From assembly GCA_001897425.1 (NCBI GenBank), contig MKSW01000013.1:164345-211492 (forward strand): a DNA stretch of 47,148 bases, given 5' to 3'. Origin of the DNA: Actinobacteria bacterium 69-20. Its GTDB lineage: Bacteria; Actinomycetota; Actinomycetes; Mycobacteriales; Nakamurellaceae. Under the pieces are notes generated by a model that searched no databases, was not told the DNA's origin, and saw only the letters and a program-made list of their open reading frames with translations. A program made the translations under genes and the position numbers. Positions 9,948-28,310 of the stretch are shown piece by piece. The stretch's first letter is position 1, and each line of letters opens with the position of its first letter.

Positions 9948-9962
9948 ACTATCCGTGATAGT
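9948..9962 (-). promoter_or_regulatory. ACTAT-N5-ATAGT operator, site A (L,D-transpeptidase 1)
   Basis: ACTATCCGTGATAGT is a near-perfect dyad. Read on the minus strand, its distal arm gives GATAGT as a possible -10. It is the first of seven copies of the motif and points only at the L,D-transpeptidase gene. Confidence 0.7.
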
Positions 9963-10050
9963 ACAAAATCTCGCTAGCGGAGCGCGGCACCAACTGTGGA
10001 CTGGCGGTGTGCACTGCGGTTGGATCGGACCGGCGGGCGCCGTCGCGGTG

Positions 10051-10932
10051 TCACGGCACGAGCGTGTCAGTGCTGGCGCCGGCGTCGGTGGTTTGCAGCA
10101 CTGCCCCGTCGATGGAGACGATGATTTCGACGCGCCCATTGTTGTCGCGCCGGGCGGATAGCGTGTCGATGGTGCCGAGTGCTTTCGGGCCGAGGGTCCA
10201 GGTCGCGCCGGCGTCGCCACTGGTCGCCAGGCGGCCGGCCGTCGTGGCAATTGCGATGGTCTGTTCGTCGGCCCAGGCGACCAGGACGGCGGGCTCCGGC
10301 GGCGCCAGGGTTTGCCAGGTGGTGGCATTGTCGGCGCTGCGGAGCAGGCCTGCTTCGGTCGTGGCCAGCAGGGTGCCGGTCTGCGGGGAGGCGGCCAGAG
10401 TGCGGGGCGGGGCAGGAATGCTATGAACAGTCCATGCCGTACGGTCCTCCGAGACGCGGAGCGCGCCGTCGAAGCCGGCCACGGTGTCCGGCCCGACGGT
10501 TAGCGCATGGAAGTCGGATTCGCCACCTCTCGAGGCGGCCTGCCAGGTTTGTCCGGAGTCTTTCGAGGTGATCAGCCCGACAGGTTGGGGCAGATCGACG
10601 CCGGCGCCAGGATGGCCGGAGGCGTAGAAGGTGCCGTCTGCCCCGATCGCGAAGCCCATCAGATCGATGGGTGGCCCGACCTGCCGCAAACTGTCGCCGG
10701 TTTGCCGGAACAGGCCCGCGTGAGTGGCCAGCAGCAGATCGCCGGTGGCCGGTTCGCGCATCGCCCCGTGGATATGCATCAGCAGGGGTGCAGACTCGGC
10801 TGTGTCAGCCGCGCCCGACGCCCCAGCGGTGGCCGCCGGTGTTGCGGTACAGCCCGCGAGCAGCCCGAATGTGACGACCGCGACCGCGGCGACGGACGCG
10901 GTGATGGCTCGGCGGGAGATCGGGATGCTCAT
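10051..10932 (-). CDS. Beta-propeller (BNR-like) lipoprotein, F510_1955 type
   Basis: The protein has 293 residues and is probably a surface lipoprotein: after an SRRAI-containing N-region and a hydrophobic stretch the lipobox reads LAGC. The mature part has sialidase-like BNR repeats: SKDSGQTWQ, SADNATTWQ and SGDAGATWT, each preceded by a strand. An HIHG motif at the start of the mature domain is typical of the F510_1955 group, which is often next to multicopper oxidases in actinobacteria. No enzymatic activity can be claimed. The ATG overlaps the oxidase stop by 4 bases (ATGA), so it is co-translated with it and probably serves copper handling outside the membrane. Confidence 0.8.
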   Translation of the reverse strand: MSIPISRRAITASVAAVAVVTFGLLAGCTATPAATAGASGAADTAESAPLLMHIHGAMREPATGDLLLATHAGLFRQTGDSLRQVGPPIDLMGFAIGADGTFYASGHPGAGVDLPQPVGLITSKDSGQTWQAASRGGESDFHALTVGPDTVAGFDGALRVSEDRTAWTVHSIPAPPRTLAASPQTGTLLATTEAGLLRSADNATTWQTLAPPEPAVLVAWADEQTIAIATTAGRLATSGDAGATWTLGPKALGTIDTLSARRDNNGRVEIIVSIDGAVLQTTDAGASTDTLVP

Positions 10933-12440
10933 GACGTGTACTTCAGGGCGATCATCATGCCGGCCTCGGCGTGATAAATGTTGTGGCAGTGGATCATCCA
11001 GTTTCCTTTGTTGTCGGCGTCCAGGTCAATCGGGATGCGTTGCATCGGCGCCATCAGCACGGTGTCTTTGCGCAGCCCGGAGGGCAGTGCGAAAGTGTGG
11101 CCGTGCACGTGCAGCGGGTGGGTCATCATCGACATGTTGACCGCGTCGATACGCAGCCGCTGCCCGGCGGCGACGGTCAGGGGTTTGTTTTTGCCGTAAG
11201 TGGCGCCGTTGATGCCCCACAGGTAGGGGTTCATCGAGCCTTGCAGGGTGAGCCGCTCAGTGGCGTCCGGCGCCCTGTCGGCTAGCCGGGCCGAGTCGGC
11301 GGGGGTGAGCTCGGAGCCGATCAGCACTCGGCCTCCCAGTTCTGTGGGGGTGACATCCGCAGCGGGGGCGGCGCCGCCCCCGCTGCGGATCAGGGCCAGG
11401 CCCTGGCCGCCGGCGGTCTTGCCGAACGGTCGGGCCACCAGGGGGAAGGCCCCGTCCTTGAGGGTGACGATCGCGTCATAGCGTTCGCCCATACCGATAT
11501 ACAAGGCGTCGGTATCGCTCGGCTGTACGGGCCAACCGTCGGTGTGCGTGACCGTCATGCGGTGCCCGCCGAGCGCGACAGCGAAGATCGTGTCCGACGC
11601 GGCGTTGATGATGCGCAACCGGACCCGCTGCCCAGGCCGGGCGGAGAGCACATCCGGGGCGGCCGGGACCTTGCCGTTGATCAAAAAGTACGGATAGGTG
11701 ACGTCACCGGCGTCGCCCCACGGCGCCGCGCCACTCCCCATTCCGCCCATGGAGCCGTGATCCATTCGGCTCATGGAGCCCATTTCCATGCCGCCATCGC
11801 TGCCGCCGGCGGTGAGGTCTTTGAGCACCTGGTCGGGGGTGGTGCCGGTGCCGTCGATCCAGTCGTCGAGGATGACGACCCATTCGGTGTCGTAGCCGCC
11901 GGGCTCGTGCGGGTCGTCGATGATCAGCGGCGCATACAGGCCGCGGTCGAGTTGCACCCCGACGTGCGGATGGAAGAAGTAGGTGCCTGGGTCGGGCGCC
12001 GTGAACCGGTAGACATATCTCCCGCCGGGCGTGACCGGGTCCTGGGTGAGGCCGGGCACCCCGTCGGCGTGGTTGGCTACGCGGATGCCGTGCCAGTGGA
12101 TCGTAGTGTCCGCCGGAAGCTGATTGTCCAGAGTGATCTCCAGGGTGTCGCCGGCGGTGGCGCGCAGCACCCGGCCGGGTAGCGCGTCGCCGTACGCCCA
12201 CGTGTTGACGGTCGGGCCGCCCAGATCGAGGGTGGCCGGCTTGGCCACGATGGTTTCGCGCACCACTTTTTGGCCGACGGCCGGGCCGACGGTCGGTGCG
12301 GGCCCGACCGTGCTGCCTGCGCTTCCGGTCGACGTGGTGCCGCCGGGCGCGGGGGCCTGGCGGCTACAGGCGGCCAGTGCCGCGGTCGCGGCCAGGCCGA
12401 GGCCGCCGAGAAGGACACGGCGGCGGGACAGATCGGTCAT
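10929..12440 (-). CDS. Multicopper oxidase lipoprotein (MmcO/CopO-like)
   Basis: This 503-residue exported enzyme is expected to oxidise Cu(I) to the less toxic Cu(II). All four copper-binding segments are present: TIHWHGIRV, TYFFHPHVG, HPLHVHGHTF and WMIHCHNIYHAEAGM. A Met/His-rich loop (GMEMGSMSRMDHGSMGGMG) around residues 220-245 resembles the copper-binding loop of CueO-type oxidases. The N-terminus has SRRRVLLGGLGL and the lipobox LAAC, so it should be Tat-exported and lipid-anchored, as described for mycobacterial MmcO. The ATG at 12440 has GAAGGA at a good distance. It is the middle gene of SHOCT protein-oxidase-propeller lipoprotein, downstream of a cop-box-like repeat. Confidence 0.95.
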   Translation of the reverse strand: MTDLSRRRVLLGGLGLAATAALAACSRQAPAPGGTTSTGSAGSTVGPAPTVGPAVGQKVVRETIVAKPATLDLGGPTVNTWAYGDALPGRVLRATAGDTLEITLDNQLPADTTIHWHGIRVANHADGVPGLTQDPVTPGGRYVYRFTAPDPGTYFFHPHVGVQLDRGLYAPLIIDDPHEPGGYDTEWVVILDDWIDGTGTTPDQVLKDLTAGGSDGGMEMGSMSRMDHGSMGGMGSGAAPWGDAGDVTYPYFLINGKVPAAPDVLSARPGQRVRLRIINAASDTIFAVALGGHRMTVTHTDGWPVQPSDTDALYIGMGERYDAIVTLKDGAFPLVARPFGKTAGGQGLALIRSGGGAAPAADVTPTELGGRVLIGSELTPADSARLADRAPDATERLTLQGSMNPYLWGINGATYGKNKPLTVAAGQRLRIDAVNMSMMTHPLHVHGHTFALPSGLRKDTVLMAPMQRIPIDLDADNKGNWMIHCHNIYHAEAGMMIALKYTS

Positions 12441-12477
12441 GGGATCCTTCACGAAACTTGATGGCTGGCGGTAGTGG

Positions 12478-12723: not shown

Positions 12724-12818
12724 CGCGAACCTCCCATCGCTCGTTGCCACGCGGCCGTGTCGCTAGCGGCCCTGCACCTAGCCTGCCTATCGCACGTTGT
12801 GGTGATGCGAAGCCGTGA

Positions 12819-12838: not shown

Positions 12839-12886
12839 ACCGGCCGGACCCCGCTTCCTGCCGCTACTGCCGGACGGGCCGGAACA

Positions 12887-14733: not shown

Positions 14734-15046
14734 ACAACGGCAACTAACACGCACGAATTCCTCAACCCACGCACTACTATGCGCTATAGTTGTAACGGCC
14801 TTGTGTGCCGGTCGGCGCGATATCAAAATGCGTGCATCGACCGTCGGCACGGCATCGGCCAGCGGGTTGGCGCCGCACGACCGTGACAAGCCGCTCGCTG
14901 TGTAGCAATCATGACCATCCGCAGGGATCAGGGCTCGCCGAACTTCCTGCGCACAGGTTCGCCACCATGGCCGGAGGCGAAGCGCCCCACCATCAGGTAG
15001 CGCAACTGGCCTGCCGAGTGGTCCTGACGGATATCGGAGAAGGAAC
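14734..15046. other. Operator-containing leader before the DUF3105 gene
   Basis: The stretch holds operator site B and then about 250 bases of probable 5' untranslated leader. A CGCAGG...CCTGCG inverted repeat at about 14920-14952 could fold. No supported gene was seen; an open frame from 14805 lacks family similarity and codon bias. Confidence 0.4.
14776..14790 (+). promoter_or_regulatory. ACTAT-N5-ATAGT operator, site B (DUF3105 gene)
   Basis: ACTATGCGCTATAGT. The right arm forms TATAGT (14785-14790), an excellent -10 hexamer for plus-strand transcription toward the DUF3105 gene. Repressor binding would cover the promoter. Confidence 0.7.
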
Positions 15047-15778
15047 GTGCCAGAACGCAAAAACATCGACCGGGCGGCCGGAGAACGTTCCCCGGATTCC
15101 AACGTGCGCCGCACGGCTGCACGCGGCACCGGTAGTAGGTCGTCCCGCAAAGCGGCGAAGCCGATCGTCCAACGGCGCCAGGTGCCGTGGGGGCTGATTC
15201 TGAGCATCGCACTCGTGGCCGTATTTGCGGTCGTGGTCATCGGCTACGCGCTCACCCGGCCAGGATCGGGATCGGCCAGTACCGCGCCGTATCTCAATGA
15301 ACTGCCCGCGGCGGAAAAGATCACAGGCATTACATTCAAGTCCGAATCGGATCGAACTCATCGTGCTGGAGCGGCCAGTCAGGGCAATATGCCCCCGGTC
15401 GGCGGCAGTCACTCTGCCGTGTGGGCCGACTGCACGGGCACCGTTTATCCCAAGCCAATTGCCGCCGAGAACGCGGTGCACTCGCTGGAGCACGGCGCGG
15501 TCTGGATCACTTACCAGCCCGACTTACCGCAAACCCAGATCGACGCCCTGGCCGCCATGGTGCGCGGTGCAAGCTACACCCTCGTCAGCCCGTACCCCGA
15601 CCAGCAGAGCCCGATCGCCGTGCAAAGCTGGGGATATCAACTCAGCGTCGACTCCGCAGATGATCCACGCCTGACGGAGTTCATCGACACCTTGCGCAAC
15701 AACCCGCGGGCCGCCCCCGAACCTGGTGGCAGCTGCGCCAACCCCGCGTTCAAAACGTCCAACGGTGTTGCCGGATAG
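15047..15778 (+). CDS. DUF3105 membrane-anchored protein
   Basis: This 243-residue protein has a basic N-terminus, one transmembrane helix at about 48-68 (WGLILSIALVAVFAVVVIGY) and an exported DUF3105 domain. Family features are NMPPVGGSH, a following WADCTGTVYPKPIAAENAVH and SLEHGAVWITY. The conserved histidines (GGSH, NAVHSLEHG) and cysteines (ADCTG, GGSCANP) suggest metal or thiol chemistry, but the family has no proven function. The GTG start has GGAGAAGGA directly upstream. It lies downstream of operator site B and is followed by the CPVCNK membrane protein under its own operator. Confidence 0.85.
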   Translation: MPERKNIDRAAGERSPDSNVRRTAARGTGSRSSRKAAKPIVQRRQVPWGLILSIALVAVFAVVVIGYALTRPGSGSASTAPYLNELPAAEKITGITFKSESDRTHRAGAASQGNMPPVGGSHSAVWADCTGTVYPKPIAAENAVHSLEHGAVWITYQPDLPQTQIDALAAMVRGASYTLVSPYPDQQSPIAVQSWGYQLSVDSADDPRLTEFIDTLRNNPRAAPEPGGSCANPAFKTSNGVAG

Positions 15779-15911: not shown

Positions 15912-15926
15912 ACTACGGGTTATAGT
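15912..15926 (+). promoter_or_regulatory. ACTAC-N5-ATAGT operator, site C, with embedded -10
   Basis: ACTACGGGTTATAGT ends 7 bases before the ATG of the next gene. Its last six bases, TATAGT, place the transcription start at or next to that ATG, giving a leaderless message whose promoter is the operator itself. Confidence 0.7.
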
Positions 15927-15933: not shown

Positions 15934-16428
15934 ATGATTGCATCTCAGGTGGCGCACCGGCCCTCAATTGCGGAGGCCGTGGCTGGCCTACGCTCATGGC
16001 CGCTGCGGAGGTGGCTGGTGGCCGCGACCGCCGCCGCCGCCGTGGCATTGATCATCGGCGTCCCTACCGGGCTGATCTCCACGTCGTGGTACGCCCGGAT
16101 GACGCCGGTGCTGTGGTGGAACTACCCGATCTGGGTGGTCACAATGCTGCTCTCTGGGCTGGTCGCGGCGACCTACGTGCGCCTTGGTGAGCGGGCAGCC
16201 ACGCCGACCGCCGGAATTTTCGGCGGAGGAGTCCTGTCGATGTTCGCGGTGGGGTGCCCGGTCTGCAACAAGCTGGTCGTCGTGGCGCTCGGAACGTCGG
16301 GCGCACTGAATATCTGGGCACCGATTCAGCCGGTGATAGGCGTGGTGGCACTGGGGCTGCTGGCCTATGCGGCGACGCGACGGCTACAGGCAGATATCCG
16401 ATGCCGGGCCGACCTACTACCGGGATAG
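15934..16428 (+). CDS. Small polytopic membrane protein with a CPVCNK motif
   Basis: This 164-residue protein has four or so hydrophobic segments: WLVAATAAAAVALIIGVPTG, YPIWVVTMLLSGLVAATYV, an internal GGGVLSMFAVG and VIGVVALGLLAYAAT. GCPVCNKLVVVALG at about residue 109 gives a CXXC at the membrane face, a feature of thiol-redox or metal-relay membrane proteins. I know related actinobacterial proteins only as conserved hypotheticals. The ATG at 15934 lies 8 bases after a TATAGT hexamer, so translation is probably leaderless. Under operator site C, it fits the envelope redox theme (TlpA, CcdA) of this block. Confidence 0.75.
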   Translation: MIASQVAHRPSIAEAVAGLRSWPLRRWLVAATAAAAVALIIGVPTGLISTSWYARMTPVLWWNYPIWVVTMLLSGLVAATYVRLGERAATPTAGIFGGGVLSMFAVGCPVCNKLVVVALGTSGALNIWAPIQPVIGVVALGLLAYAATRRLQADIRCRADLLPG

Positions 16429-16636: not shown

Positions 16637-17008
16637 ATGGTGGCGATGAGAGGGCTAGGCGAGCTGGAGGCCGCCGTGATGAATGTGATGTGGTCCTCCG
16701 AGGCGCCGATGTCGGTCAGGGCGGTACTAGACGCGCTGCCGCGCAGAAAGCCGCTGGCGTACACGACCGTCATGACCGTGTTGAATAACCTGCACCGAAA
16801 GGAATACGTGCGGCGGGAAAAGGACGGCCGCGCATTCCTCTACGAACCGAGCATGTCGCGCAGCCAGGCCGCGGCCGATGCCATGCGACAGATACTCAAC
16901 GAAACAGCGGACACCGAGACAGCGCTGCTACTCCTAGCCCGCTCGGCCAGCGAGACGGAAACGCAGGCGCTGCGCCGCGGCCTGGACCGGCGCCGGGGCC
17001 GGGCATGA
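16637..17008 (+). CDS. blaI: BlaI/MecI/CopY-family transcriptional repressor
   Basis: This 123-residue winged-helix repressor reads LGELEAAVMNVMWSSEAPMSVRAVLDAL, then LAYTTVMTVLNNLHRKEYVRREKDGRAFLYEP, the classic BlaI/MecI DNA-binding core; the C-terminal helix (about 75-123) should dimerise. Family members bind dyads such as TACA...TGTA and are inactivated by cleavage through a partner M56 protease; CopY members respond to copper instead. No CXC copper motif is present, so the BlaI mode is more likely. The start may be the ATG at 16637 or 16646. It overlaps the protease gene by 4 bases. Seven ACTAY-N5-ATAGT sites lie around it, but I saw none in its own upstream region. Confidence 0.9.
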   Translation: MVAMRGLGELEAAVMNVMWSSEAPMSVRAVLDALPRRKPLAYTTVMTVLNNLHRKEYVRREKDGRAFLYEPSMSRSQAAADAMRQILNETADTETALLLLARSASETETQALRRGLDRRRGRA

Positions 17009-17955
17009 CACTCGCCCTGGTCGTGATCACCAGCGGCCTGGCCCTGTTCCTCTTCGGCCACTGGCCGATTCGTCGGCTCATGCGTCGATCCGGCGATCCC
17101 CGCGTCGCGATAGTGAGCTGGCTGATCGCGCTAGCCGCCGCGCCGGGAATGCTGATCGGCGGCACCGCGATCCTGCTGCTGCCCGGCCACGCGGGGCTCA
17201 CCGGATTGGCCCGGTCCGCCGGCGGATGCCTGATCCATCTGGCCAACGAGGTGACCCCGACCCGAGAAGAGGTCACCGGCCTCGTAGGGCTGCTACTTCT
17301 TGTCGTGGGCACCGTCAGGATCGTCGTCGTCGCCGCCCAATTCACGCGTCGGCGTCGGCAACAGCTCGACCATCACCGGTTCCTGGTGGCATTGGCCAGC
17401 AGGCCGGAGACGAATCGCCCCGATGGTCGCCCCATACACCTGCTCGATCATCGTCGGCCCATGGCGTATAGCGTCGGCGGCGCAGGCGGCCTGGTGGTCG
17501 TCTCACGCGGGCTACAAGACGCACTCACCCCGGGCGCGTTCGCCGCCGCCATCGCCCATGAGCAAGCACACTTGAAAGGTCACCATCATCTGCTGCTCGC
17601 GGCCGTGGATATCCTCGCCGCCGCGATTCCGATCGCCCCCCTCCTGCGACACGCGCCGCACGACCTGCGCGTACTAGTGGAATACGCCGCCGACACCGAG
17701 GCAGCCCGACGCTGGGGCGCGACCGCAGTTCGAAACGCGGTGCTGGCCGTCGCCGGATCAACAGTTCCACGATGCGCACTGAGCATGGCAGGCGGCCCCG
17801 TCGCGGATCGACTGGCGCGTTTGCGGGATCCCGTCGACCAGCGATCGACGCTTCATCGTCTCCTTCGTTGCGGCGTGGCCGGCGCCACAACGGCCCTCGG
17901 GCCGCTGTTGGTAACGGCCACGGCGCTGCTCGTCGTCGCCTGCCCGACCGCCTGA
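17005..17955 (+). CDS. M56-family membrane metalloprotease (BlaR-like)
   Basis: This 316-residue protein has hydrophobic N-terminal helices (LALVVITSGLALFLFGHW; WLIALAAAPGMLIGGTAIL; GLLLLVVGTVRIVVVAAQF), a cytosolic zinc-protease domain with the HEXXH motif HEQAH (His185-His189), and two further C-terminal helices. It ends there, without the extracellular penicillin-binding sensor of staphylococcal BlaR1, as in mycobacterial BlaR. It should cleave or destabilise the BlaI repressor after an envelope signal; what it senses is unclear. The ATGA overlap with blaI means a coupled pair. The beta-lactam signal is inferred from the family only. Confidence 0.85.
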   Translation: MTLALVVITSGLALFLFGHWPIRRLMRRSGDPRVAIVSWLIALAAAPGMLIGGTAILLLPGHAGLTGLARSAGGCLIHLANEVTPTREEVTGLVGLLLLVVGTVRIVVVAAQFTRRRRQQLDHHRFLVALASRPETNRPDGRPIHLLDHRRPMAYSVGGAGGLVVVSRGLQDALTPGAFAAAIAHEQAHLKGHHHLLLAAVDILAAAIPIAPLLRHAPHDLRVLVEYAADTEAARRWGATAVRNAVLAVAGSTVPRCALSMAGGPVADRLARLRDPVDQRSTLHRLLRCGVAGATTALGPLLVTATALLVVACPTA

Positions 17956-18080: not shown

Positions 18081-19688
18081 TCAGGTGCCGGGCCGAGTCG
18101 CTCCTATATAACCGGCCCACCGCATCGACGAAATCCGCACGACGTCGCCCGATTGCCGTGCTTCGATGATCTGGTCATTGCCCATATAGATGGCCACGTG
18201 ATGGATCGTGGCAGGGTTCGACGTGTCGTTCGCGTAATACACCAGGTCACCGGGTTGCAAGTCGGACCGGTCGACCCGTTGCCCTCGGTTGAACTGGTAG
18301 CCGGAGTAATGCGGCAACCTGACCCCGACCTGCCCCCACGCGTACAACGTCAGGCCGGAGCAGTCGAATCCGATCTTCTTGTAGTCGCCGTATTGGTCGG
18401 CGACCCCGTAATCGCGGATACCCTTCGTCGGGCCATTGATGTCTCCGCCGCCCCACGCATAGGACGTGCCGACCCATTTCAGGGCCTCCTGAACAACCCG
18501 CTGCCCGGCACGACCGTCGGCGGGACCCGGCTGCGTGACCGGCGACTCTGGGCCGGCATCTGGCGGTCCCGGCGGGGCGCTGGGCGTGCCCGGTTGGCTG
18601 CCGCCGTCATTACCCCGTTGCGCTCGCGCTCTGGCCAGATCCTGCTGGCGTTTGCGCCCGGTCCGGATCGCGTCGGCGCGCTGCTTTTCGACCTGTGCCT
18701 GCTGCTGCTCGGCGAGTTGGCGTTGACGTAGCGCGATTGCCGCCTGCCTCTGTTGGACGGCGGCCTGTTCGGCCACTCGACGCTCCTCGGCCTTCTTGGT
18801 CGCGAGCCACGTCTCGTATTGGGCGCGCTGCCCCTTAAGCTCAGCTACCTGATCCAGGGCCTGTTGATAGGTGGCCTGTTGGTCGACAAGTTGCGCCTGC
18901 AATACGGTGAGCTGGCGCTGACCGCTCGCAAAAGAGTCGACGGCTGCCTGCTCCGCCCGATCGGCCGACCGCTGCGCGTCTTGGGCCGCGCTCCGCGCGC
19001 GGCGCGCGGCCGCGAGCGCCTCTCTGGCCTGGGAGTCCAGGTTCGCCTTCGATACGCGCGACGTCCGCAAGAGGTCGAGCACGCCGGCCTGGCTGCCGGA
19101 CACCTGCGCAATCATCTGACTGCGCGCCAGCAGTTCGTCGATGGAATCTGCGTCGAGCAGCGCCGTCAAGGAGCCGGCCACCGATCCCTGCCGGAACGAA
19201 GCCGCGGCGAACTGTGCCGCGCCGTTTTCCGCCGCGCTGATGGCGTCGCCGGCCTGGCTTGCCGCTCGCCGTGAGGTTGCGACGAATTGTTCGGCGTCAT
19301 CGGCCGTAGCCTGCGCGACTTGAAGATCGACGCGCGCTTTCATCGCGAGTTCCGCCGCCAGTTCCATCGAGTCCTGTAAGCGTGTGATCTTCGCCTGGGT
19401 GGATGACATGGCCCCGGACAGCCGTCCGACCTCGGCCGCCGATTGCGACGCCTTGCTCTGGCTGTCTTGGATCTCCCGGTCGCTCGGGTTGGGCGGGGGC
19501 GGCGGCACGGCTTGCGCCGTACCGGCCGTGCCCACCGCCACGGCGCCGGCGAGAAGAATAGGGGCAATCACAGCCCAGCCGCGCGACACACGAGCCCGCG
19601 CAGAAGCAGCCACACCCCTGCGCTTCGAGATCCTTCTTGCGCTGCCGTGGCCGCCGTGACTCAAGGGGCCGACTGGTCTTCGGCTCAT
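18081..19688 (-). CDS. NlpC/P60 peptidoglycan endopeptidase with coiled coil (RipA-like)
   Basis: This 535-residue secreted hydrolase has a long basic N-region, a signal helix (WAVIAPILLAGAVAVGTAG) with cleavage after TAQA, an Ala/Gln-rich coiled coil over about 60-350, a Pro/Gly linker, and a C-terminal NlpC/P60 domain. The domain shows YAWGGGDINGPTKGI, FDCSGLTLYAWG with Cys443 and IHHVAIYMG with the catalytic His. This is close to mycobacterial RipA, which cuts D-Glu-mDAP bonds during septation. No Shine-Dalgarno supports the ATG at 19688, so an internal GTG near residue 25 is possible. No operator of the ACTAY type was found within 500 bases upstream, unlike the divergent hydrolase. Confidence 0.88.
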   Translation of the reverse strand: MSRRPVGPLSHGGHGSARRISKRRGVAASARARVSRGWAVIAPILLAGAVAVGTAGTAQAVPPPPPNPSDREIQDSQSKASQSAAEVGRLSGAMSSTQAKITRLQDSMELAAELAMKARVDLQVAQATADDAEQFVATSRRAASQAGDAISAAENGAAQFAAASFRQGSVAGSLTALLDADSIDELLARSQMIAQVSGSQAGVLDLLRTSRVSKANLDSQAREALAAARRARSAAQDAQRSADRAEQAAVDSFASGQRQLTVLQAQLVDQQATYQQALDQVAELKGQRAQYETWLATKKAEERRVAEQAAVQQRQAAIALRQRQLAEQQQAQVEKQRADAIRTGRKRQQDLARARAQRGNDGGSQPGTPSAPPGPPDAGPESPVTQPGPADGRAGQRVVQEALKWVGTSYAWGGGDINGPTKGIRDYGVADQYGDYKKIGFDCSGLTLYAWGQVGVRLPHYSGYQFNRGQRVDRSDLQPGDLVYYANDTSNPATIHHVAIYMGNDQIIEARQSGDVVRISSMRWAGYIGATRPGT

Positions 19689-20189: not shown

Positions 20190-20204
20190 ACTACGCATCA
20201 TAGT
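20190..20204 (+). promoter_or_regulatory. ACTAC-N5-ATAGT operator, site D (second NlpC/P60 gene)
   Basis: ACTACGCATCATAGT lies within a wider dyad with arms AAACTA and TAGTTT (20185-20206). CATAGT is the likely -10, so transcription toward the NlpC/P60 gene would begin near 20211. Confidence 0.7.
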
Positions 20205-20414: not shown

Positions 20415-21581
20415 ATGCCGAGGTTTGCCTTGTCCCCGCGTTCACCTCGAGTCATCGCCAGCATGATGGTGGCCGTTGCTCTCGGTCTGGCCAACCCGGT
20501 ACCGGTTGCGGCGGCGCCGCCCGCACCGGACGCAGATGGCACCAACGAGCCGACCACATCAACCGAAGCCCAGAAGGCCTGGTTGGACAGTTCGGAAAAG
20601 GCCGCCCTGGTCAACGACGAGGTGCTGCAGGCACAGGAGCAGCAACGGCAGGCGCGCGACGGCGCGGACCGCGCCGCACGCACTGTCGGGCAGGCCGAAC
20701 AGACTGCCGCGGCGGCGGCTGAAGAATCAGGACGGGCGGCCATGGAGGCAGCCGAGCTGCAGTCCCAGGCGCGAGAGTTCGCCAGCGCCGCATTTCGCGG
20801 CGCCCAATTGAGCACGGTGAGCGCGCTGCTGACCAGCGATTCCGCATACGACTTTCTGGACCAGGCGCAAATGCTGGACCAGGTCGCCACCACCACGCAG
20901 GCCACGCTCGATGCCGCCGCGGCGGCGGAGCGAGCCGCCCGCGAAGCCGAGGACGCCGCGGCGGACGCCGCAGCGAGGGCCCGCGCGGCCAAACGCGCCG
21001 CGGACGCCGCCGCGGCGGCGGCCGACCGCGCGACCGTCGAGGTGCAACACCGGCAGGCCGCCCTACGCGATCAGGCCGCCCAATACCGAGCACTCACCCG
21101 GCAACTGACCCAGGATGAACGCAATCAGGCCATCGCCGCCCAACAACGCGCCTATGAACAGCAGGCAGCGGCCACCGCGGAACCCGCCGTTCCGGCGCCG
21201 CCGCCGCAGCAGCAGTCGGCCGGCGCGAGCCCGGCCGGTCAGGTCGCCGTCGCGGCGGCGTTGTCGAAGCTCGGCGCACGCTATGTGTGGGGGGCCAGCG
21301 GCCCGAACCTATTCGACTGTTCCGGTCTGACCTCCTGGGCGTGGGCGCAAGCCGGCGTGAGTATCCCGCGAACGTCGCGAGATCAGTCGACCATGACGAC
21401 CGTGCCGCTAGATCAGCTCCGGCCCGGCGACTTGGTCACCTACTATTCGCCGGTCAGCCACGTCGCGATGTACATCGGCAACGGCAAGGTTGTTCAGGCA
21501 TCGACGGAGAGCATGCCGGTGTACATCAGCAGCCTGTACGGTGCCGGGCCGAACCCGACCGGGCACCGCGTCAACGGCTGA
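20415..21581 (+). CDS. NlpC/P60 peptidoglycan endopeptidase 2
   Basis: This 388-residue secreted hydrolase begins with a signal peptide (MVAVALGLANPVPVAAA). An extremely Ala/Glu/Arg-rich coiled coil covers about 45-250, followed by a Pro/Gln linker and the NlpC/P60 domain: LGARYVWGASGPNLFDCSGL with Cys302, RPGDLVTYYSPVSHVAMYIG with the catalytic His. It lacks the GPT insertion of the divergent RipA-like hydrolase and ends shortly after the domain. It probably cleaves stem peptides. The ATG at 20415 is chosen for the signal peptide; AAGGG is 14 bases away, so the ribosome site is weak. Operator site D lies 210 bases upstream. Confidence 0.87.
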   Translation: MPRFALSPRSPRVIASMMVAVALGLANPVPVAAAPPAPDADGTNEPTTSTEAQKAWLDSSEKAALVNDEVLQAQEQQRQARDGADRAARTVGQAEQTAAAAAEESGRAAMEAAELQSQAREFASAAFRGAQLSTVSALLTSDSAYDFLDQAQMLDQVATTTQATLDAAAAAERAAREAEDAAADAAARARAAKRAADAAAAAADRATVEVQHRQAALRDQAAQYRALTRQLTQDERNQAIAAQQRAYEQQAAATAEPAVPAPPPQQQSAGASPAGQVAVAAALSKLGARYVWGASGPNLFDCSGLTSWAWAQAGVSIPRTSRDQSTMTTVPLDQLRPGDLVTYYSPVSHVAMYIGNGKVVQASTESMPVYISSLYGAGPNPTGHRVNG

Positions 21582-21628: not shown

Positions 21629-21643
21629 ACTATGCTTCATAGT
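21629..21643 (+). promoter_or_regulatory. ACTAT-N5-ATAGT operator, site E (Ldt2-Tlp-Ccs-FtsX operon)
   Basis: ACTATGCTTCATAGT, with CATAGT (21638-21643) as a likely -10. Transcription would start near 21650, leaving a short leader with GGAGGGGGAGG before the ATG at 21670. Confidence 0.72.
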
Positions 21644-21669: not shown

Positions 21670-23040
21670 ATGCGCGGCGCTGCATACCCGACGCGGTGGA
21701 TTGCCTGGCTCGGCGTCCTGGTCGTCGGCGTGACATCGTGTTCGGCCGCCACCGGCGCGTCGCAGACGTCGAGCCCGGTCGGGGCGTCACGACCGGTAAT
21801 TACGACTTCCAGCAGTGTTGGCGGCCAACCAGCACTGGAACTATCAACGGCCATTGCCCCGACATCGACAGGGCTCGTGGCCCCGGTCGGCTCGCCCGCG
21901 ACCCCGGATCCGGCACCCGAGACCGGGCCTACCGCCGCTTCGGTCACCCCGGATTCGACTGCGGGTATCACCATCGCGCCGGCCAATGGAGCGACAGGCA
22001 TCTCGCCTCTGGAGCCGGTGGTGATCCGGGCAACACGCGGCACGCTGGGCTCGGTGGCCCTGCGCAATCCAGCCGGGAAGTCGGTCGCTGGCGTGCTCTC
22101 GGCGGACGAAACGACGTGGACCTCGGCCGAGCCGCTCGGTTACAACAAGCGCTACACGGCGAGCGCGACAGCGGTTGCCTCTCCTGGCGGCGCCACCTTG
22201 GCGGCGTCGTTCACAACGCTCAAGCCGGACGTGACGGTGTTCCCGTCGTTTTACCCGCCGCCATCGACGAAGGTTGTCGGCGTCGGACAGCCCATGGTGG
22301 TGATCTTCAGCGAGCCGCCCGTGGACCGAGCCGCAGCGGAGAAGACGCTGACCGTGACGGCCGAGCCGGCGACCGAGGGCGCTTGGTACTGGTGGGATGA
22401 CCGGACGGTGCACTGGCGACCCAAGGAGTACTGGAAGCCGGGCACCAAAGTCACCGTGACGGCGAAGGTCTACGGTGTCCCGTTCGGCCCCGGCATGTAC
22501 GGCGAGACGGACCGGACACTGAACGTCACGATCGGTTCGTCGAAGATCGCCGTGATCGACGACGTGACCAAGCAGATGGACGTGTTCATCGACGGGCGAA
22601 AGGTGCGCACCGTCCCGGTCAGCATGGGAATGGACAAGGCCATCACCGTCAACGGCAAGAAGATCTCGTTCGTCACGCCCAGCGGAACCTACGTGGCACA
22701 GGAAAAATACGACGTCAAGCAGATGAGCTCGGCAAGCTACGGACTGCCGGTGAACTACGACCTGGGCTACGACTCCGCCATCCCGTTGGCGATCCGGCTG
22801 TCCTACAGCGGAATATTCATCCACTCCGCGCCGTGGTCGGTCAAGGACCAAGGCGTCCGGAACGTCTCCCACGGATGTATCAACATCAACCCCACCGACG
22901 CCGCCTGGTTCTATGACACGTTCGGCTACGGCGACATCGTCACCGTCAAGGGCACCGACACGCCGCTGGAATCCCACGACGGATTCGGCGACTGGAACAT
23001 CCCCTGGAGCCAATGGCTCGAGGGAAGCGCACTGCGGTGA
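21670..23040 (+). CDS. L,D-transpeptidase lipoprotein 2 (YkuD domain)
   Basis: This 456-residue enzyme is a second 3-3 cross-linking transpeptidase. Its signal region (RWIAWLGVLVVGVTSCS) ends in a lipobox, TSCS, here without a twin-arginine pair, so it should use Sec. A Thr/Pro-rich linker leads to two Ig-like domains and then the YkuD domain: GIFIHSAPWSV and NVSHGCINI (His401, Cys403). The C-terminal cap FGDWNIPWSQWLEGSAL resembles that of the first copy. The ATG at 21670 has GGAGG about 8 bases upstream. It is the first gene of a tight operon (overlaps of 4 bases) with tlpA, ccdA, resB and ccsA, behind operator site E. Confidence 0.93.
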   Translation: MRGAAYPTRWIAWLGVLVVGVTSCSAATGASQTSSPVGASRPVITTSSSVGGQPALELSTAIAPTSTGLVAPVGSPATPDPAPETGPTAASVTPDSTAGITIAPANGATGISPLEPVVIRATRGTLGSVALRNPAGKSVAGVLSADETTWTSAEPLGYNKRYTASATAVASPGGATLAASFTTLKPDVTVFPSFYPPPSTKVVGVGQPMVVIFSEPPVDRAAAEKTLTVTAEPATEGAWYWWDDRTVHWRPKEYWKPGTKVTVTAKVYGVPFGPGMYGETDRTLNVTIGSSKIAVIDDVTKQMDVFIDGRKVRTVPVSMGMDKAITVNGKKISFVTPSGTYVAQEKYDVKQMSSASYGLPVNYDLGYDSAIPLAIRLSYSGIFIHSAPWSVKDQGVRNVSHGCININPTDAAWFYDTFGYGDIVTVKGTDTPLESHDGFGDWNIPWSQWLEGSALR

Positions 23041-23678
23041 CCGGATTTCGGCCGCCTGGGCGACCGGCCCGATCACGCGCCACTGCCTGGGGCGGCGCAG
23101 TGAGGTGGATACGGACCGTGGCGCTGGTGGCCGTGTTGGGGCTAGCCGTCGGCGCATGCTCGTCCGGCGCCGGTGCGTCCGGCTCTTTTGAATTCTCTTC
23201 CCCCGGCAGCACCGACGAGATCTCCTATCCACTGTCCCAGCGAGGCGCCATCGGCGACCTGTCCGGGCCGAGCCTGACCGGCGCCGGAACAATCCGCTTG
23301 TCCGACTACTCGGACACAGTGGTGGTGCTGAACTTCTGGGGCTCATGGTGCCCACCGTGCCGTGCCGAGGCGCCCGAGCTGAACGCCGCGGCCCGCGCGC
23401 TCGAATCCTCCGGTGTGCAGTTCCTCGGCGTCGACATCCGGGACTCGAAGGAGGCGGGACGCGACTTTCACCAGGCAGCGGACACGCCGTACCCGTCGAT
23501 CTTCGACCCGACCATGCAGACGCTGTTGTCCCTGCGTGGTTTTCCCACGGCGGCGATCCCCTCGACGATCGTGCTCGACCGGCAACGCCGGGTGGCGCAC
23601 ATCTGGCTGCGCCCGGTCACCGAGGCGCAGATGGTCAAGGTGATCACGCCGATCGCCGCGGAGCAGAGCAAGCCGTGA
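23037..23678 (+). CDS. TlpA/ResA-like thioredoxin lipoprotein
   Basis: This 213-residue protein has an N-terminal membrane segment (TVALVAVLGLAVG) and a possible lipobox VGAC, then a thioredoxin fold with the redox site FWGSWCPPCRAEAPELN (Cys105, Cys108) and the cis-proline region FPTAAIPSTIVLD. ResA/TlpA proteins reduce disulfides outside the membrane, classically those of apocytochrome c. The GTG start overlaps the transpeptidase stop (GTGA); a second GTG at 23100 is possible. It sits directly before ccdA, its usual electron donor. It might also keep the active-site cysteine of the co-transcribed L,D-transpeptidase reduced, which is speculative. Confidence 0.9.
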   Translation: MTGFRPPGRPARSRATAWGGAVRWIRTVALVAVLGLAVGACSSGAGASGSFEFSSPGSTDEISYPLSQRGAIGDLSGPSLTGAGTIRLSDYSDTVVVLNFWGSWCPPCRAEAPELNAAARALESSGVQFLGVDIRDSKEAGRDFHQAADTPYPSIFDPTMQTLLSLRGFPTAAIPSTIVLDRQRRVAHIWLRPVTEAQMVKVITPIAAEQSKP

Positions 23679-24469
23679 TCTTCCTGGATGTAGTCGCCGT
23701 GGCGGGGGTCACGGACACGGTAACCAGCGGCCCGTTCGTGCTGGCCGCCGCGCTGGCCCTTGCGGCCGGCGCGGTCTCCTTCGCCTCACCCTGCGTCATA
23801 CCCCTGGTTCCCGGATACCTCTCGTACATCGTGGGCCTGGTCGGCTCCGACGGCGCGCAGGACGGCTCGGTGCAGGTGCGCGTCCGCAGGCGCGCCGTGA
23901 TCGGCACCGTGCTGTTCGTGGGCGGTTTCACCGCGGTGTTCGTCGCCGAGACGGTGCTCGTGCTGGGTCTGGCCCGCGGGCTTTTGGAAAACCAGAACCT
24001 GCTCATGCGCATCGGCGGCGGCGTCACGATCCTGATGGGCCTGGCCATGGCCGGGGCCATACCGCTGCTCCGCCGCGAGATTCGCTGGCGCATCCGGCCC
24101 CGCGGCCGCGTGTTCGGTGCGCCACTGCTCGGGGCGGCGTTCGGCACCGGGTGGGTCGCGTGTATCGGCCCGACTCTGGCCGGCGTGATCTCGCTGTCGT
24201 ACGCCACCGATTGGGGCGGCTCGGCCTGGCGGGGGCTGCTGCTCATGCTGTTTTATTGCGCCGGCCTGGGGATCCCGTTCATCGTGGTCGCCGCCGGATT
24301 CGGCTGGGCCACCTCCGCGCTGGGATTCCTGCGCCGCCACACCCGGACCATCCAGCTGGTGGGCGCGGCCGGCATGGTACTGGTCGGCCTGCTGATGGTC
24401 ACCGGGGTGTGGGGACAGTTCATCGCATTCCTGCGCGTCACCGTGCCCACCTCCGGGACGGTGCTCTAA
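23675..24469 (+). CDS. ccdA: CcdA-family thiol-disulfide transmembrane protein
   Basis: This 264-residue polytopic protein is of the CcdA/DsbD type, with about six membrane helices. The two redox cysteines are in the expected places: ASPCVIPLVPGYLSYIVG (Cys40) and VACIGPTLAGVISLSY (Cys163). It carries electrons from cytosolic thioredoxin to the outside thiol protein TlpA/ResA. The GTG start overlaps the tlpA stop by 4 bases, and resB begins directly after its TAA, so all are on one transcript. I reject the longer in-frame start at 23345 because it would run through tlpA. Confidence 0.93.
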   Translation: MIFLDVVAVAGVTDTVTSGPFVLAAALALAAGAVSFASPCVIPLVPGYLSYIVGLVGSDGAQDGSVQVRVRRRAVIGTVLFVGGFTAVFVAETVLVLGLARGLLENQNLLMRIGGGVTILMGLAMAGAIPLLRREIRWRIRPRGRVFGAPLLGAAFGTGWVACIGPTLAGVISLSYATDWGGSAWRGLLLMLFYCAGLGIPFIVVAAGFGWATSALGFLRRHTRTIQLVGAAGMVLVGLLMVTGVWGQFIAFLRVTVPTSGTVL

Positions 24470-26158
24470 ATGCCCCCGCCCGACACCATCGCCGCACGCC
24501 GGAACGAGCCGACCCAAAAGCGCCCGCCAACCCGCCGCGGGCGCAAAGCGTTCACATCCGCCACGGCGGCCCTGCGGAACCTGTGGCGCCGCCTGACGAG
24601 CATGCATACGGCGCTGGTACTGCTCTTTCTGCTGACGATCGCGGCGCTGCCCGGAGCGCTGCTGCCACAGTGGTCCACCAGCCGGGTGAACACCAGCAAG
24701 TACATCGCCGATCACCCCGAAATCGGCCCCTGGCTGAACCGTCTCGGCTTTTTCAACGTGTTCTCCTCACCCTGGTTCGCCGCGGTCTACCTGCTGCTGT
24801 TCATCTCCCTGATCGGATGCGTCACGCCGCGCAGCCGCGAAATTCTGCGGCAGATCCGCCGCGGGCCGCCCGCCACCGCGCCCCGCAACCTGTCGCGGCT
24901 ACCGCATCATGAGGCGCTCACCGCGGTCGGTGACGCGGCCCACGCCGGTGAGCGCATCCGCGGCCGGCTGCGCCGTACCGGTATCGGCGGGTGGCGCACC
25001 GCTATGCGGCACGAACCGGACGGCACCGTCATCGTTGCCGCCGAGAAGGGCTATCTCCGTGATGTGGGCAACCTGGTCTTTCACATCTCGCTGCTCGCGC
25101 TGCTGCTGTCGACCAGCGTGGGTAGCCTGTTCGGCTACGAAGGATCGGTCATCATCACCGCGGGCAGCGGATTTTGCGCATCGTCGCCGATCGCCTACGA
25201 CGACTTCCGCCCCGGATCGATGGTCAACGCCACCACCACGACCCCGTTCTGTGTCGATGTGGATGCGTTCCACGCCACCTACACCGAGGGCGGTCAGGCC
25301 ACCAGCTTCCAGGCCGATATCCGGTTCCAAGACGGTGCCGCATTGGGCACGGACACGTGGCAACGCCGGGCGCTGGAAGTCAATGATCCAATCCGGTTTT
25401 CCGGCGACCGGCTCTATTTGATGGGGCACGGGTACACGCCGACATTCCGGATCACCTACCCCAACGGGGCGGTGCGCAACTACCAGCAGCCCTTCCTGCC
25501 CAGCGACTCGCTGTTCACCTCCGAGGGCGCCGTCAAGGTCACCGACCCGCCCGGATACCCGCGCGATCAGCTGCTCAAGAATCAACTCGCGATCGTCGGC
25601 GTCTTCGCACCCACGGCCCTTCTGGCCGGCGGCGTCCTGTCCTCCGGATACCCGTCGCAACTGAGCCCGGGCGTCGCCGTGGACATCTACCGCGGCGATT
25701 TGGGGATGTCCACCGGCCGCCCCCAATCGGTGTTCGCCATCGACAACACGCAGGTGGCCCGCGGCCTGCTCGTCAAAAAGGCGCACGCCGTCCTGGCGCC
25801 CGGCCAGTCCACCACCCTGACCGACGGCACCCGGATCACCTTCACCGGCGCCAAAGAGTTCGTGTCGCTGCAAACCTCTTACGACCCGGCACAGGGATGG
25901 GCATTGGTGTCGGTGCTCTTCATGATCGCCGGCCTGATGGCCTCGTTGCTGATCAAACGGCGCCGCGTCTGGTATCGCATCCGCCCCGAGCCGGCGCCAC
26001 CAGCCGATCCCGCCGGAAGCCTTGTCATCGAAGTGGGCGGACTGGCCCGCACCGATCAGGCCGGCTACGGCCGCGAATTCCCGTCCCTGGTCGCACTGGC
26101 CGAGGACCCGTCATCGGTGTCGGGCCGCCGGCCGGCCGCCGCCGTGAAAGGACAATGA
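24470..26158 (+). CDS. resB: ResB cytochrome c maturation protein
   Basis: This 562-residue protein belongs to the system II cytochrome c synthase. It has a cytosolic basic N-region, helices around 45-65 (ALVLLFLLTIAALPGALLPQ), 100-120 and 185-210 (LVFHISLLALLLSTSVGSLFG), a large outside domain, and a last helix (ALVSVLFMIAGLMASLLI) before a cytosolic tail. ResB with CcsA forms the complex that passes haem to apocytochrome c. The ATG follows the ccdA TAA without a gap. No CXXCH cytochrome was seen in the window, so its substrate is elsewhere in the cell or unusual. Confidence 0.92.
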   Translation: MPPPDTIAARRNEPTQKRPPTRRGRKAFTSATAALRNLWRRLTSMHTALVLLFLLTIAALPGALLPQWSTSRVNTSKYIADHPEIGPWLNRLGFFNVFSSPWFAAVYLLLFISLIGCVTPRSREILRQIRRGPPATAPRNLSRLPHHEALTAVGDAAHAGERIRGRLRRTGIGGWRTAMRHEPDGTVIVAAEKGYLRDVGNLVFHISLLALLLSTSVGSLFGYEGSVIITAGSGFCASSPIAYDDFRPGSMVNATTTTPFCVDVDAFHATYTEGGQATSFQADIRFQDGAALGTDTWQRRALEVNDPIRFSGDRLYLMGHGYTPTFRITYPNGAVRNYQQPFLPSDSLFTSEGAVKVTDPPGYPRDQLLKNQLAIVGVFAPTALLAGGVLSSGYPSQLSPGVAVDIYRGDLGMSTGRPQSVFAIDNTQVARGLLVKKAHAVLAPGQSTTLTDGTRITFTGAKEFVSLQTSYDPAQGWALVSVLFMIAGLMASLLIKRRRVWYRIRPEPAPPADPAGSLVIEVGGLARTDQAGYGREFPSLVALAEDPSSVSGRRPAAAVKGQ

Positions 26159-26160
26159 CA

Positions 26161-27195
26161 ATGGTTGACGTCGATTCCGCCACGGCGGTCTGGGAACTGG
26201 GGGCCCGAATCTCGGATTTCACGTTCGAGGGTGCGCTCGCCGGCTATGTGACCGCGCTGGCCTGCCACGCCGCAGAGCTCGCGACCCGGCACGCCCCCAG
26301 GGCCAGCACGGCCGCTGCCGCGGCCACCACCCGTGCGCGGACCGCGGGTGCGGTCGCCGTCATCACCAGTGACGGCGGGCCGGACGCCACCGACCGTGAC
26401 GGACGCTTCGCGCCGGACCCGGCCGGTGCCGGCTGGGGTGAGCGACTCGGCCGGGCGGCGATCATGGTCACCGCCGTGGGGTTCGGCATGAACGTCGCCT
26501 CGATCGTCATGCGCGGCCTGGCGGCACACCGGGCGCCGTGGGGAAACATGTACGAGATCGCCTCACTGATCTGCGCGATCGCGGCCGGCGCCTGGCTGCT
26601 CGTCGCGGCCCGCGCTCACGTTCGACGCATGGGCGTTTTCGTCGTCTTCCCCATCGCGGTGCTGAGCTTCGTGGGCGGAACCGTGCTCTACACACCGGCC
26701 GGGACATTGGTTCCCGTGCTGCAGTCGTATTGGCTGGTGGTGCACGTACTGCTCGTGGCGCTTTCGTCGGGGGTGCTCATGTTGTCCGGTGCGGCATCGT
26801 TGATGTTCATCATCCGGTCGCGGTACGAGCGCCGAGTCGTCAACGTGGCGGATGACCGGTCCTTCGTAGCCAGACTCCCCGAGACGGCGACGCTCGACCG
26901 GATCGCGTACCGGACCGCGATCATCGGCTTCCCGCTGTTCACGTTCGCCGTGGTCGCCGGCGCCTTGTGGGCCGAGGCCTCGTGGGGCCGCTACTGGGGT
27001 TGGGATCCGAAGGAAACCACGGCTCTGGTCACCTGGGTGCTCTACGCGGGCTATCTGCATGCGCGCGCCACCAGCGGCTGGCGCGGCAGCCGAGCCGCGT
27101 GGATATCGATCCTGGGATTCGCCTCGATCATGTTCAACCTGTTTTTCGTCAACATGGTCGTCTCCGGTCTGCACTCCTATGCCGGCTTGAACTAA
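26161..27195 (+). CDS. ccsA: CcsA/CcsB haem-handling cytochrome c synthase subunit
   Basis: This 344-residue polytopic protein has the WWD-type haem motif, here WGRYWGWDPKETTALVTW, in a late loop, and the conserved histidines in HAARAP/HRAPWGNMYE and VHVLLVALSSG, with a C-terminal FNLFFVNMVVSGLHSYAG. Together with ResB it ligates haem to apocytochromes outside the membrane. I chose the ATG at 26161, because AAAGGA is 8 bases upstream; an ATG at 26155 overlapping the resB stop is too close to that site. It ends 51 bases before ftsX. Confidence 0.9.
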   Translation: MVDVDSATAVWELGARISDFTFEGALAGYVTALACHAAELATRHAPRASTAAAAATTRARTAGAVAVITSDGGPDATDRDGRFAPDPAGAGWGERLGRAAIMVTAVGFGMNVASIVMRGLAAHRAPWGNMYEIASLICAIAAGAWLLVAARAHVRRMGVFVVFPIAVLSFVGGTVLYTPAGTLVPVLQSYWLVVHVLLVALSSGVLMLSGAASLMFIIRSRYERRVVNVADDRSFVARLPETATLDRIAYRTAIIGFPLFTFAVVAGALWAEASWGRYWGWDPKETTALVTWVLYAGYLHARATSGWRGSRAAWISILGFASIMFNLFFVNMVVSGLHSYAGLN

Positions 27196-27246
27196 CCTCC
27201 GCCCACCACATCACCCGCGGAGCCAACACAGGAAGACGGCCGGCGC

Positions 27247-28182
27247 ATGGCGCGAGGACACAGGCGGCAGCCCGATGTGACGCTGTCCGGTCACGCCATC
27301 GGCGACGGGCTCCGCGGACTACGGCACAACGTCACCATGACCGTGGCGATGGTGCTGACAACCGCGATCTCGCTGACCCTGCTCGGAGCGGGCCTGATCG
27401 TCGCCCGGATGACCGACCAGATGCGGGATATGTACAGCGCGAAGGTGGAGGTCACGGTCTACCTCACCGTCACGCAATCCCAAAAGGACCCGGACTGCGG
27501 CGGCGCAACCTGCCAGGACCTGGGCCGAAAACTGCGCGACGATCCCGATGTCGCCGCCGTGTCGTACCAGAGCCAGGCCGCGGCATGGCAGCAGTATCAG
27601 AAAATGTTCGCCAGCCAGCCCGACATGCTGGCGATCGCGGACCAGTCGGCGCTGAACGCATCGTTCCAGGTCAAACTCGAAAATCCGCAGCGTTACGCCC
27701 GGATTAACGCCCGGTACGCGAACGCACCCGGAGTGGAGACCGTCACCGGTCAGAGCGAGGTGCTCGACCGCATGTTCACGCTCCTCAACGGGATACGGAA
27801 CGCCACCATCGCGGTCGCACTTGTCATGGCGCTCGCGACCCTGCTGTTGATCTCCAACATGGTCCAGGTCGCCGCATTCGCGCGGCGCACCGAGACCGCG
27901 ATCATGCGACTGGTGGGCGCGTCCCGATGGCGCACCCAGGTTCCGTTCGTCGTAGAGGCGGTCGTCGCCGCCATCATCGGCGCCGCCGTGGCGATCGGCG
28001 GCCTGGCCACGGCGAAAAAATTCCTCATTGAATCGGCGCTGGGGCCGGTGATGCGCGCCGGGGTGCTGCCGCCGCTCGACACCGCCGCCCTGGCCTGGGT
28101 GGCGCCCTGGCTCGCGGGAGCCGCCGTTGCGCTGGCGACCGTCAGCTCGTATCTCACGCTGCGGCTCTACGTCCGCCTGTAG
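27247..28182 (+). CDS. ftsX: FtsX-family permease without a partner FtsE
   Basis: This 311-residue protein has the FtsX layout: a cytosolic N-region, helix 1 (MTVAMVLTTAISLTLLGAGLIV), an extracellular domain of about 120 residues, then three helices beginning with IAVALVMALATLLLISNMV and containing the RRTETAIMRLVGASRWRTQ coupling segment for an ATPase. FtsEX opens NlpC/P60 hydrolases such as mycobacterial RipC. No ftsE lies beside it, so it must borrow the chromosomal ATPase or act differently. It is the last gene in the operon behind site E. The outer domain has a CGGATC cysteine pair. Confidence 0.9.
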   Translation: MARGHRRQPDVTLSGHAIGDGLRGLRHNVTMTVAMVLTTAISLTLLGAGLIVARMTDQMRDMYSAKVEVTVYLTVTQSQKDPDCGGATCQDLGRKLRDDPDVAAVSYQSQAAAWQQYQKMFASQPDMLAIADQSALNASFQVKLENPQRYARINARYANAPGVETVTGQSEVLDRMFTLLNGIRNATIAVALVMALATLLLISNMVQVAAFARRTETAIMRLVGASRWRTQVPFVVEAVVAAIIGAAVAIGGLATAKKFLIESALGPVMRAGVLPPLDTAALAWVAPWLAGAAVALATVSSYLTLRLYVRL

Positions 28183-28270
28183 AAATGTCATGCCGACCCC
28201 AGCACGGTGAGGCACCGGCTCACGCCGACGCACGCCTATCGAGGCCCCACCATCCGTCACAGTTTCCGAA

Positions 28271-28285
28271 ACTATCTGTGATAGT
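28271..28285 (+). promoter_or_regulatory. ACTAT-N5-ATAGT operator, site F1
   Basis: ACTATCTGTGATAGT is the upstream copy of a tandem pair, 25 bases (start to start) before F2. A pair gives room for two dimers on the same promoter of the Lgt-like gene. Confidence 0.7.
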
Positions 28286-28295
28286 AATTCGCGGT

Positions 28296-28310
28296 ACTAT
28301 CGACGATAGT
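28296..28310 (+). promoter_or_regulatory. ACTAT-N5-ATAGT operator, site F2
   Basis: ACTATCGACGATAGT, with GATAGT as possible -10. The predicted transcript starts near 28317, and GGAGGG precedes the GTG at 28341. Confidence 0.72.

Follow-up and report, generated by a model that had tools for sequence, protein, structure and literature searches.

A stretch of 47,148 nucleotides from Actinobacteria bacterium 69-20 (contig C13, MKSW01000013.1, positions 164345-211492, hereafter the window) carries seven copies of a short inverted repeat upstream of cell-envelope genes, together with genes for a BlaI-family repressor and a membrane protease. Followed through the rest of this genome (4.48 Mb, 43 contigs) and through the neighborhoods of related BlaI genes, the repeat keeps one spacing, lies between genes and accompanies BlaI genes; the finding thus extends far beyond the window, many other actinobacteria having the dyad, with its N7 spacing, next to BlaI genes related to this one. 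We consider it likely that the dyad TACTAY-N5-RTAGTA is the operator of the window BlaI, which would repress a set of extra envelope genes along with its own operon until relieved by the partner protease. On sequence grounds BlaI is very probably the protein that binds the dyad, while repression and proteolytic relief are presumed by analogy with the BlaI/MecI family, and copper, thiol redox or wall fragments may be proposed, speculatively, as the inducing signal.

All seven sites listed in a preliminary description of this DNA were recovered as exact matches to ACTAY-N5-ATAGT, none with an assigned strand:

9948..9962, predicted operator dyad upstream of L,D-transpeptidase 1 (Ldt1, gene on the minus strand)
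14776..14790, predicted operator dyad upstream of the DUF3105 gene; its right arm contains TATAGT
15912..15926, predicted operator dyad 7 bp before the CPVCNK gene, at the head of the probable CPVCNK-BlaI-M56 operon
20190..20204, predicted operator dyad upstream of an NlpC/P60 gene, with TTGACA immediately after it
21629..21643, predicted operator dyad 26 bp before L,D-transpeptidase 2 (Ldt2) and the genes downstream of it
28271..28285, predicted operator dyad, first of two before the Lgt-like gene
28296..28310, predicted operator dyad, second of two before the Lgt-like gene

The same description held the motif to be far rarer than one per 47 kb by chance, and dinucleotide shuffles of the window bear this out (mean 0.00 in 100 shuffles, against seven observed). 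When R is permitted in the right arm together with one mismatch, the window count stays at seven, with 0.5 expected from shuffles and a maximum of three. The genes concerned are as follows:

8542..9909, minus strand, L,D-transpeptidase 1 with Big_10 and YkuD domains, SHGC kept; likely start at 9861 or 9879
15047..15778, plus strand, DUF3105 protein
15934..16428, plus strand, CPVCNK membrane protein of 164 residues with about four hydrophobic segments and no Pfam or NCBIfam family
16640..17008, plus strand, BlaI-family repressor (Penicillinase_R 95.6 bits, cut-off 22.6) with no cysteine; open frame from 16520
17005..17955, plus strand, membrane protease of M48/M56 type, HEQAH, 316 residues, no penicillin-binding domain found
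20415..21581, plus strand, NlpC/P60 protein; open frame from 20205
21670..23040, plus strand, L,D-transpeptidase 2 with Big_10 and YkuD domains, SHGC kept
23013..28182, plus strand, TlpA-like, CcdA-like, ResB, CcsA and FtsX-like genes after Ldt2
28341..29714, plus strand, Lgt-like protein with an N-terminal extension

Each dyad precedes an envelope gene or operon, as had been claimed, the distance to the likely start being 7 bp for CPVCNK, 26 bp for Ldt2, 30 and 55 bp for the two sites before the Lgt-like gene, 68 or 86 bp for Ldt1, 210 bp for NlpC/P60 and 256 bp for DUF3105. Alternative starts exist at two of these genes, the longer open frame of the Lgt-like gene (from 28185) spanning both sites, with a start equipped with a ribosome-binding site after them at 28341, and the longest NlpC/P60 frame starting directly at its site (20205). 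At 15912 the TATAGT ends 7 bp before the ATG, and would therefore suit a leaderless CPVCNK transcript. The proposal that the right arm doubles as a -10 element in most sites did not survive scrutiny, as a strict TANNNT (TATAGT) is found only at 14776 and 15912, two of the seven; most promoters remain unplaced, since a -35-like hexamer beginning at the last base of the dyad appears in just 13 of 318 oriented views. The CcdA-like protein has no Pfam match and resembles the annotated CcdA of relatives. No site lies directly upstream of another NlpC/P60 gene of the window (18081-19688).

The CPVCNK, BlaI and protease genes probably form a single operon headed by the 15912 site. The earlier suggestion of a BlaI regulon, drawn from a blaI/M56 pair in the middle of the region, is supported by this and by the evidence given below, with the correction that this site heads the probable operon holding blaI itself. 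In Pfam the protease scores below the cut-off for M56 (17.5 bits, cut-off 31) and above that for Peptidase_M48 (29.5 bits, cut-off 20.3), its plasmid counterparts are annotated as either, and no Pfam domain corresponding to an extracellular penicillin-binding sensor was found within its 316 residues. CPVCNK-like relatives recur in both locus sets described below (14 of 67 and 18 of 70), and the CXXC membrane protein of the operon may, speculatively, provide a redox input.

A scan of the whole genome for ACTAYN5RTAGT returned nine sites (seven for the reversed control), eight of them within C13:174-221 kb and one on contig C11. For the core ACTA-N7-TAGT the genome holds 11 sites and the reversed control 100, and 10 of the 11 fall inside C13:174292-222272, a 48-kb metal island making up ~1.07% of the genome; by hand calculation the chance of at least 10 of 11 core sites landing there is ~2e-19. 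The N8 spacing (ACTA-N8-TAGT) has three matches in the genome and none in the island. Sixteen relatives from the same genus contain 0-4 ACTAYN5RTAGT matches each and no comparable cluster in any, so that this absence, taken with the clustering, fits a regulon that arrived with the island. One of these relatives (G014) has four matches, of which two, reading ACTAT-N5-ATAGT, stand 6.6 kb apart (C8:1010 and 7594) and may represent a remnant of the regulon or something related to it.

The island, which extends ~11 kb past the window, carries within it three heavy-metal P-type ATPases, CsoR, a multicopper oxidase, CopRS and an F510 glycosylhydrolase, as well as ACR3 arsenite efflux and arsenite methyltransferase genes (window 4864-6863). 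A resolvase and a Mu-type transposase, encoded next to the metal genes (window 44297-46389), are a likely vehicle for it. Among its envelope genes the window counts two L,D-transpeptidases, two NlpC/P60, DUF3105, the TlpA-CcdA-ResB-CcsA-FtsX-like set, an Lgt-like gene and Lnt, some of which are extra copies, as two further Lgt and five further YkuD genes reside elsewhere in the genome. Of the three island sites beyond the window, one precedes a gene run that encodes an unknown protein, a redoxin and CopC-CopD, another a TlpA-like lipoprotein gene, and the third a gene for a 134-residue protein without family. A second group of DUF3105, BlaI and M48-type protease genes is also found there (~C13:212.2-214.9 kb, L010:2237-4944). 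The scope first given to the regulon was thus correct for the seven window sites and missed the three others, the second BlaI pair and the copper setting. F510_1955-like and DUF305 genes recur in islands of this kind (window 10054-10932; L158:16854-18291; L093:9265-10107), several with a site directly upstream.

Further evidence tying the dyad to BlaI comes from other genomes, from which stretches of 10-30 kb (less where a contig ended) were fetched round BlaI relatives. A first set of 67 loci comprised 40 from the upper part of the BlaI relatives listed, 20 from the lower part (family f7, genus relatives and one other) and seven plasmids, with six more plasmids bringing it to 73 loci. A single BlaI protein used as query over genome contigs found no relative. 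A second set came from a search with an alignment of nine BlaI proteins: 80 of 587 relatives were kept and the 10 overlapping the first set dropped, leaving 70. Across the 67 loci (1.19 Mb), ACTA-Nk-TAGT occurs 1, 2, 149, 4 and 0 times for k=5-9, the two N6 matches comparing with zero in an earlier, smaller sample of loci; a count of 65 at k=10 is consistent with the outward repeat ACTACTA-N7-TAGT. When palindromic tetramers at N7 are ranked, ACTA stands at the top (149 against 0.8 expected), and 159 distinct sites yield the consensus TACTAY-N5-RTAGTA. Second by size in the same loci, among the 12 tetramers reported, is TACC-N7-GGTA (43 against 4.0 expected), perhaps the site of another regulator. 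The 70 independent loci of the second set (1.22 Mb) repeat the pattern, with 194 matches at N7 against 0, 1, 2 and 2 at N5, N6, N8 and N9, and N7 sites in 59 of the 70; conservation round BlaI genes of relatives is thus seen in both sets.

The sites also avoid genes: of the 48 sites on 13 annotated plasmid stretches (gene table incomplete, three stretches without a site), 47 are intergenic, with coding sequence making up 77% of the bases, which argues against random occurrence inside genes. Twenty whole genomes contain 3-20 sites each, with 49-204 for the reversed control, and among the genomes for which site places were listed, sites lie beside BlaI genes in nine of nine cases in G157, four of four in G331 and three of five in G311. 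On a Mycobacterium intracellulare plasmid, a BlaI gene without an adjoining protease (L124:14824-15402) has one ACTA-N7-TAGT upstream, in a region of carbon-fixation genes.

Operator and repressor seem to change together across BlaI clades. In a FastTree ordering of BlaI sequences (86 hits, fragments below 90 residues excluded), the genus-core group stands separate, and its seven loci are without an ACTA-N7 site; six of the seven (L113-L115 and L117-L119) have TTCTAC-N5-GTAGAA just before blaI instead. Across 17 genus genomes this alternative dyad occurs 0-3 times per genome and is present in 12, directly before the core blaI in at least eight of those 12, and is absent from the genome of 69-20 itself. 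One or two further copies in some genus genomes would constitute a small second BlaI regulon. In another BlaI group, three loci account for every one of the four N8 matches seen in the 73 loci and have no N7 site (~3e-6 by chance, the pattern being noticed post hoc), these matches (L066:8357, L071:406 and 12486, L074:12956) lying ~3 kb or more from blaI and not at its promoter; two N8 matches in the second set were not assigned to a clade. The mycobacterial-type chromosomal group (ten loci) has one N7 site in total and no common perfect dyad, a CTACTAT-N5-TACGTAG form appearing in two of the ten. Short of bench evidence, this clade-wise co-variation is the strongest indication that the dyad belongs to BlaI.

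The genes behind the sites elsewhere resemble those of the window. On the annotated plasmids, the site-gene pairs (a site between divergent genes counted for both, the Ig-domain and CPVCNK labels assigned here from sequence matches) include M23 peptidases (6), Ig-domain transpeptidase-like proteins (5), CPVCNK-like proteins (5), Lgt (4), BlaI (3), RipA (2), CtaD (2) and hypothetical proteins (11), and, once each among others, NlpC, Lnt, LspA, TlpA, a DsbA-like thioredoxin, CtaA, CtaG, CopC and a Rieske protein. In Amycolatopsis tucumanensis, a copper-resistant strain, a 9.1-kb contig (L202) bears a compact array of Lgt-like, Lnt, Lgt, BlaI and protease genes. Two of its sites stand immediately before the Lgt-like gene and before Lnt, a third lies between Lgt and BlaI, and a fourth is unplaced. 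On a second contig of this species, sites precede a heavy-metal-binding protein, BlaI and a solute-binding protein; one falls between a weak cupredoxin match and an M23 gene, another stands next to a methyltransferase, and one is inside the predicted M23 frame. Sites in Rhodococcus rhodnii precede an NlpC/P60, a BlaI, an F510-like (BNR) and a DUF305 gene, with one unplaced, and those in Saccharomonospora precede a PQQ-repeat gene and a DsbA-like gene.

Several observations weigh against the assignment of this regulon to the window BlaI, or against its copper setting. With two BlaI genes in one island, either could bind a given site, and within the window no site stands directly upstream of Lnt, CopRS or the oxidase. 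Loci of broadly the right kind may lack an N7 site altogether (7 of 53 in the first set and 11 of 70 in the second, 18 in all), and only 11 of the 67 loci have a site in the 400 bp preceding the BlaI match; in some of the remaining loci blaI may follow another gene that itself has the site, as it does in the window. In genome G159 only 6 of 14 sites cluster at BlaI, and in G213, which has eight sites across 8.5 Mb, one of the eight lies beside a BlaI among those listed. Copper markers, sought with five probes in the second set, were present in 28 of 59 site-bearing loci and in 2 of 11 loci without sites; copper is therefore common in site-bearing loci and not a constant partner.

One competitor for the dyad is the copper response regulator CopR, whose genes lie mid-region in the window and in several plasmid islands, and for which copper would be a sensible signal. 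Against it, neither copRS nor the oxidase of the window has a dyad site, and islands can be rich in sites even when the 30 kb fetched contain no CopRS (ten in L098, with CopRS relatives elsewhere on that plasmid). A control drew 10 CopRS plasmids from 60 of 583 records, leaning to names absent from the BlaI lists: the seven without a BlaI match have 2 sites in 890 kb, compared with 97 in 3.34 Mb for 11 BlaI-bearing records, and the three that do carry BlaI have 0, 7 and 3. Because CopRS plasmids without BlaI are nearly free of sites, the sites track BlaI and not CopR, and CopR as the binder was rejected as highly improbable. The mobility of the island, with its resolvase and Mu-type transposase, might alternatively suggest that the dyads match by chance or belong to a copied repeat element, yet centers and flanks vary between sites, shuffles produce none, and the spacing and placement statistics effectively refute such an origin, to which we attach a negligible probability.

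A closer contest concerns the signal. One possibility, which we hold tentatively, is that mobile copper islands of Actinomycetota carry a BlaI-protease switch, devoid of a penicillin sensor, which senses copper damage to thiol-dependent envelope steps and, via its clade-specific half-site and spacing, induces a replacement kit that would comprise L,D-transpeptidase, NlpC/P60, M23, Lgt/Lnt/LspA and TlpA/DsbA-CcdA-ResB-CcsA proteins, sometimes with a terminal oxidase. Excerpts of the literature, from which all PMC-numbered sources are cited here, report that L,D-transpeptidases are inhibited by copper (Peters 2018 as cited in PMC6593411) and that lipoprotein acylation is impaired by it (PMC6538781). 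Somewhat more doubtful, though still a genuine contender, is a regulon bound by BlaI that answers wall damage (beta-lactams or peptidoglycan fragments), copper being incidental and release perhaps effected by a wall dipeptide acting on BlaI, much as gamma-D-Glu-m-A2pm is reported to dissociate BlaI from its operator in B. licheniformis (PMC3305447, in excerpt). Many targets do act on the wall, and in the second set the five probes gave no copper marker in over half of the loci that have sites; however, lipoprotein, thiol-redox, cytochrome and copper genes behind the same sites go beyond wall damage alone, and the genes annotated in this analysis included no beta-lactamase.

The regulator family is itself well known. 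The staphylococcal mec operator has the core TACA-N2-TGTA, and the BlaI/BlaR1 and MecI/MecR1 systems, with operators centered on it, differ in operator from the present dyad, TACTA-N7-TAGTA with a free center, as well as in the single resistance gene they control, compared with many envelope targets here, and in their penicillin sensor, which was not found on the protease of the window. What is shared, according to excerpts on staphylococci and bacilli (PMC3305447, PMC7253601), is the repressor family, the repressor-protease pair and palindromic operators. The nearest solved structure to the window BlaI by sequence is 2g9w. The M. tuberculosis BlaI regulon was the subject of a 2009 study, in which a similar dyad may already be described. 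That BlaI (Rv1846c) is likewise an actinobacterial repressor with several targets, some in cell division and the envelope (PMC12565901, PMC8265638), but belongs to another BlaI subfamily by sequence, and its targets as given in those excerpts are blaC-related, sigC, ATP synthase and ftsQ genes. The CopY/CopR copper repressors share the winged-helix superfamily and an association with copper islands, but the window BlaI is without their C-terminal CXC motif (it has no cysteine at all), falls below the cut-off of the CopY_TcrY NCBIfam equivalog (46.8 bits, cut-off 121.95), and is paired with a dyad unlike their operator RNYKACANNTGTMRNY (PMC7253601, in excerpt); direct copper sensing of the CopY type was accordingly rejected. 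A functional parallel is offered by lit2/lgt2 of Listeria and Enterococcus copper islands, reported in the excerpt to be extra lipoprotein-maturation genes that accompany copper resistance and are induced by copper (PMC8275575), although these occur in another phylum, and the enzymes here are Lgt, Lnt and LspA, together with wall and redox genes, behind a predicted BlaI operator. No description of the regulon and its content, its operator geometry or its clade dependence was found in the open-access papers searched, which omit most subscription journals.

In the mechanism we favor, BlaI dimers would sit on the promoter regions of the extra envelope genes and of their own operon, holding them off, with the operator perhaps shared with the second BlaI-M48/M56 pair beyond the window. 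The repressed set would include the L,D-transpeptidases, NlpC/P60, the Lgt-like protein, thiol-redox and cytochrome-assembly genes, and the CopC-CopD operon. Because the protease has no penicillin-binding domain and BlaI no cysteine, neither known beta-lactam sensing nor copper sensing of the CopY type is indicated. The partner membrane protease, without a recognizable penicillin sensor, might instead remove BlaI upon a disturbance of the envelope, most plausibly by copper, whereupon the extra envelope set would be made.

With a readable predicted operator for these BlaI-protease pairs, a large and little-studied group, their regulons could be predicted from sequence across many genomes. The presence of extra wall, lipoprotein and redox genes on copper islands would also gain a testable explanation, namely the reported inhibition by copper of L,D-transpeptidases and of lipoprotein acylation. 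If this is true, BlaI pairs in these bacteria would be switches for envelope damage, and not for beta-lactams.

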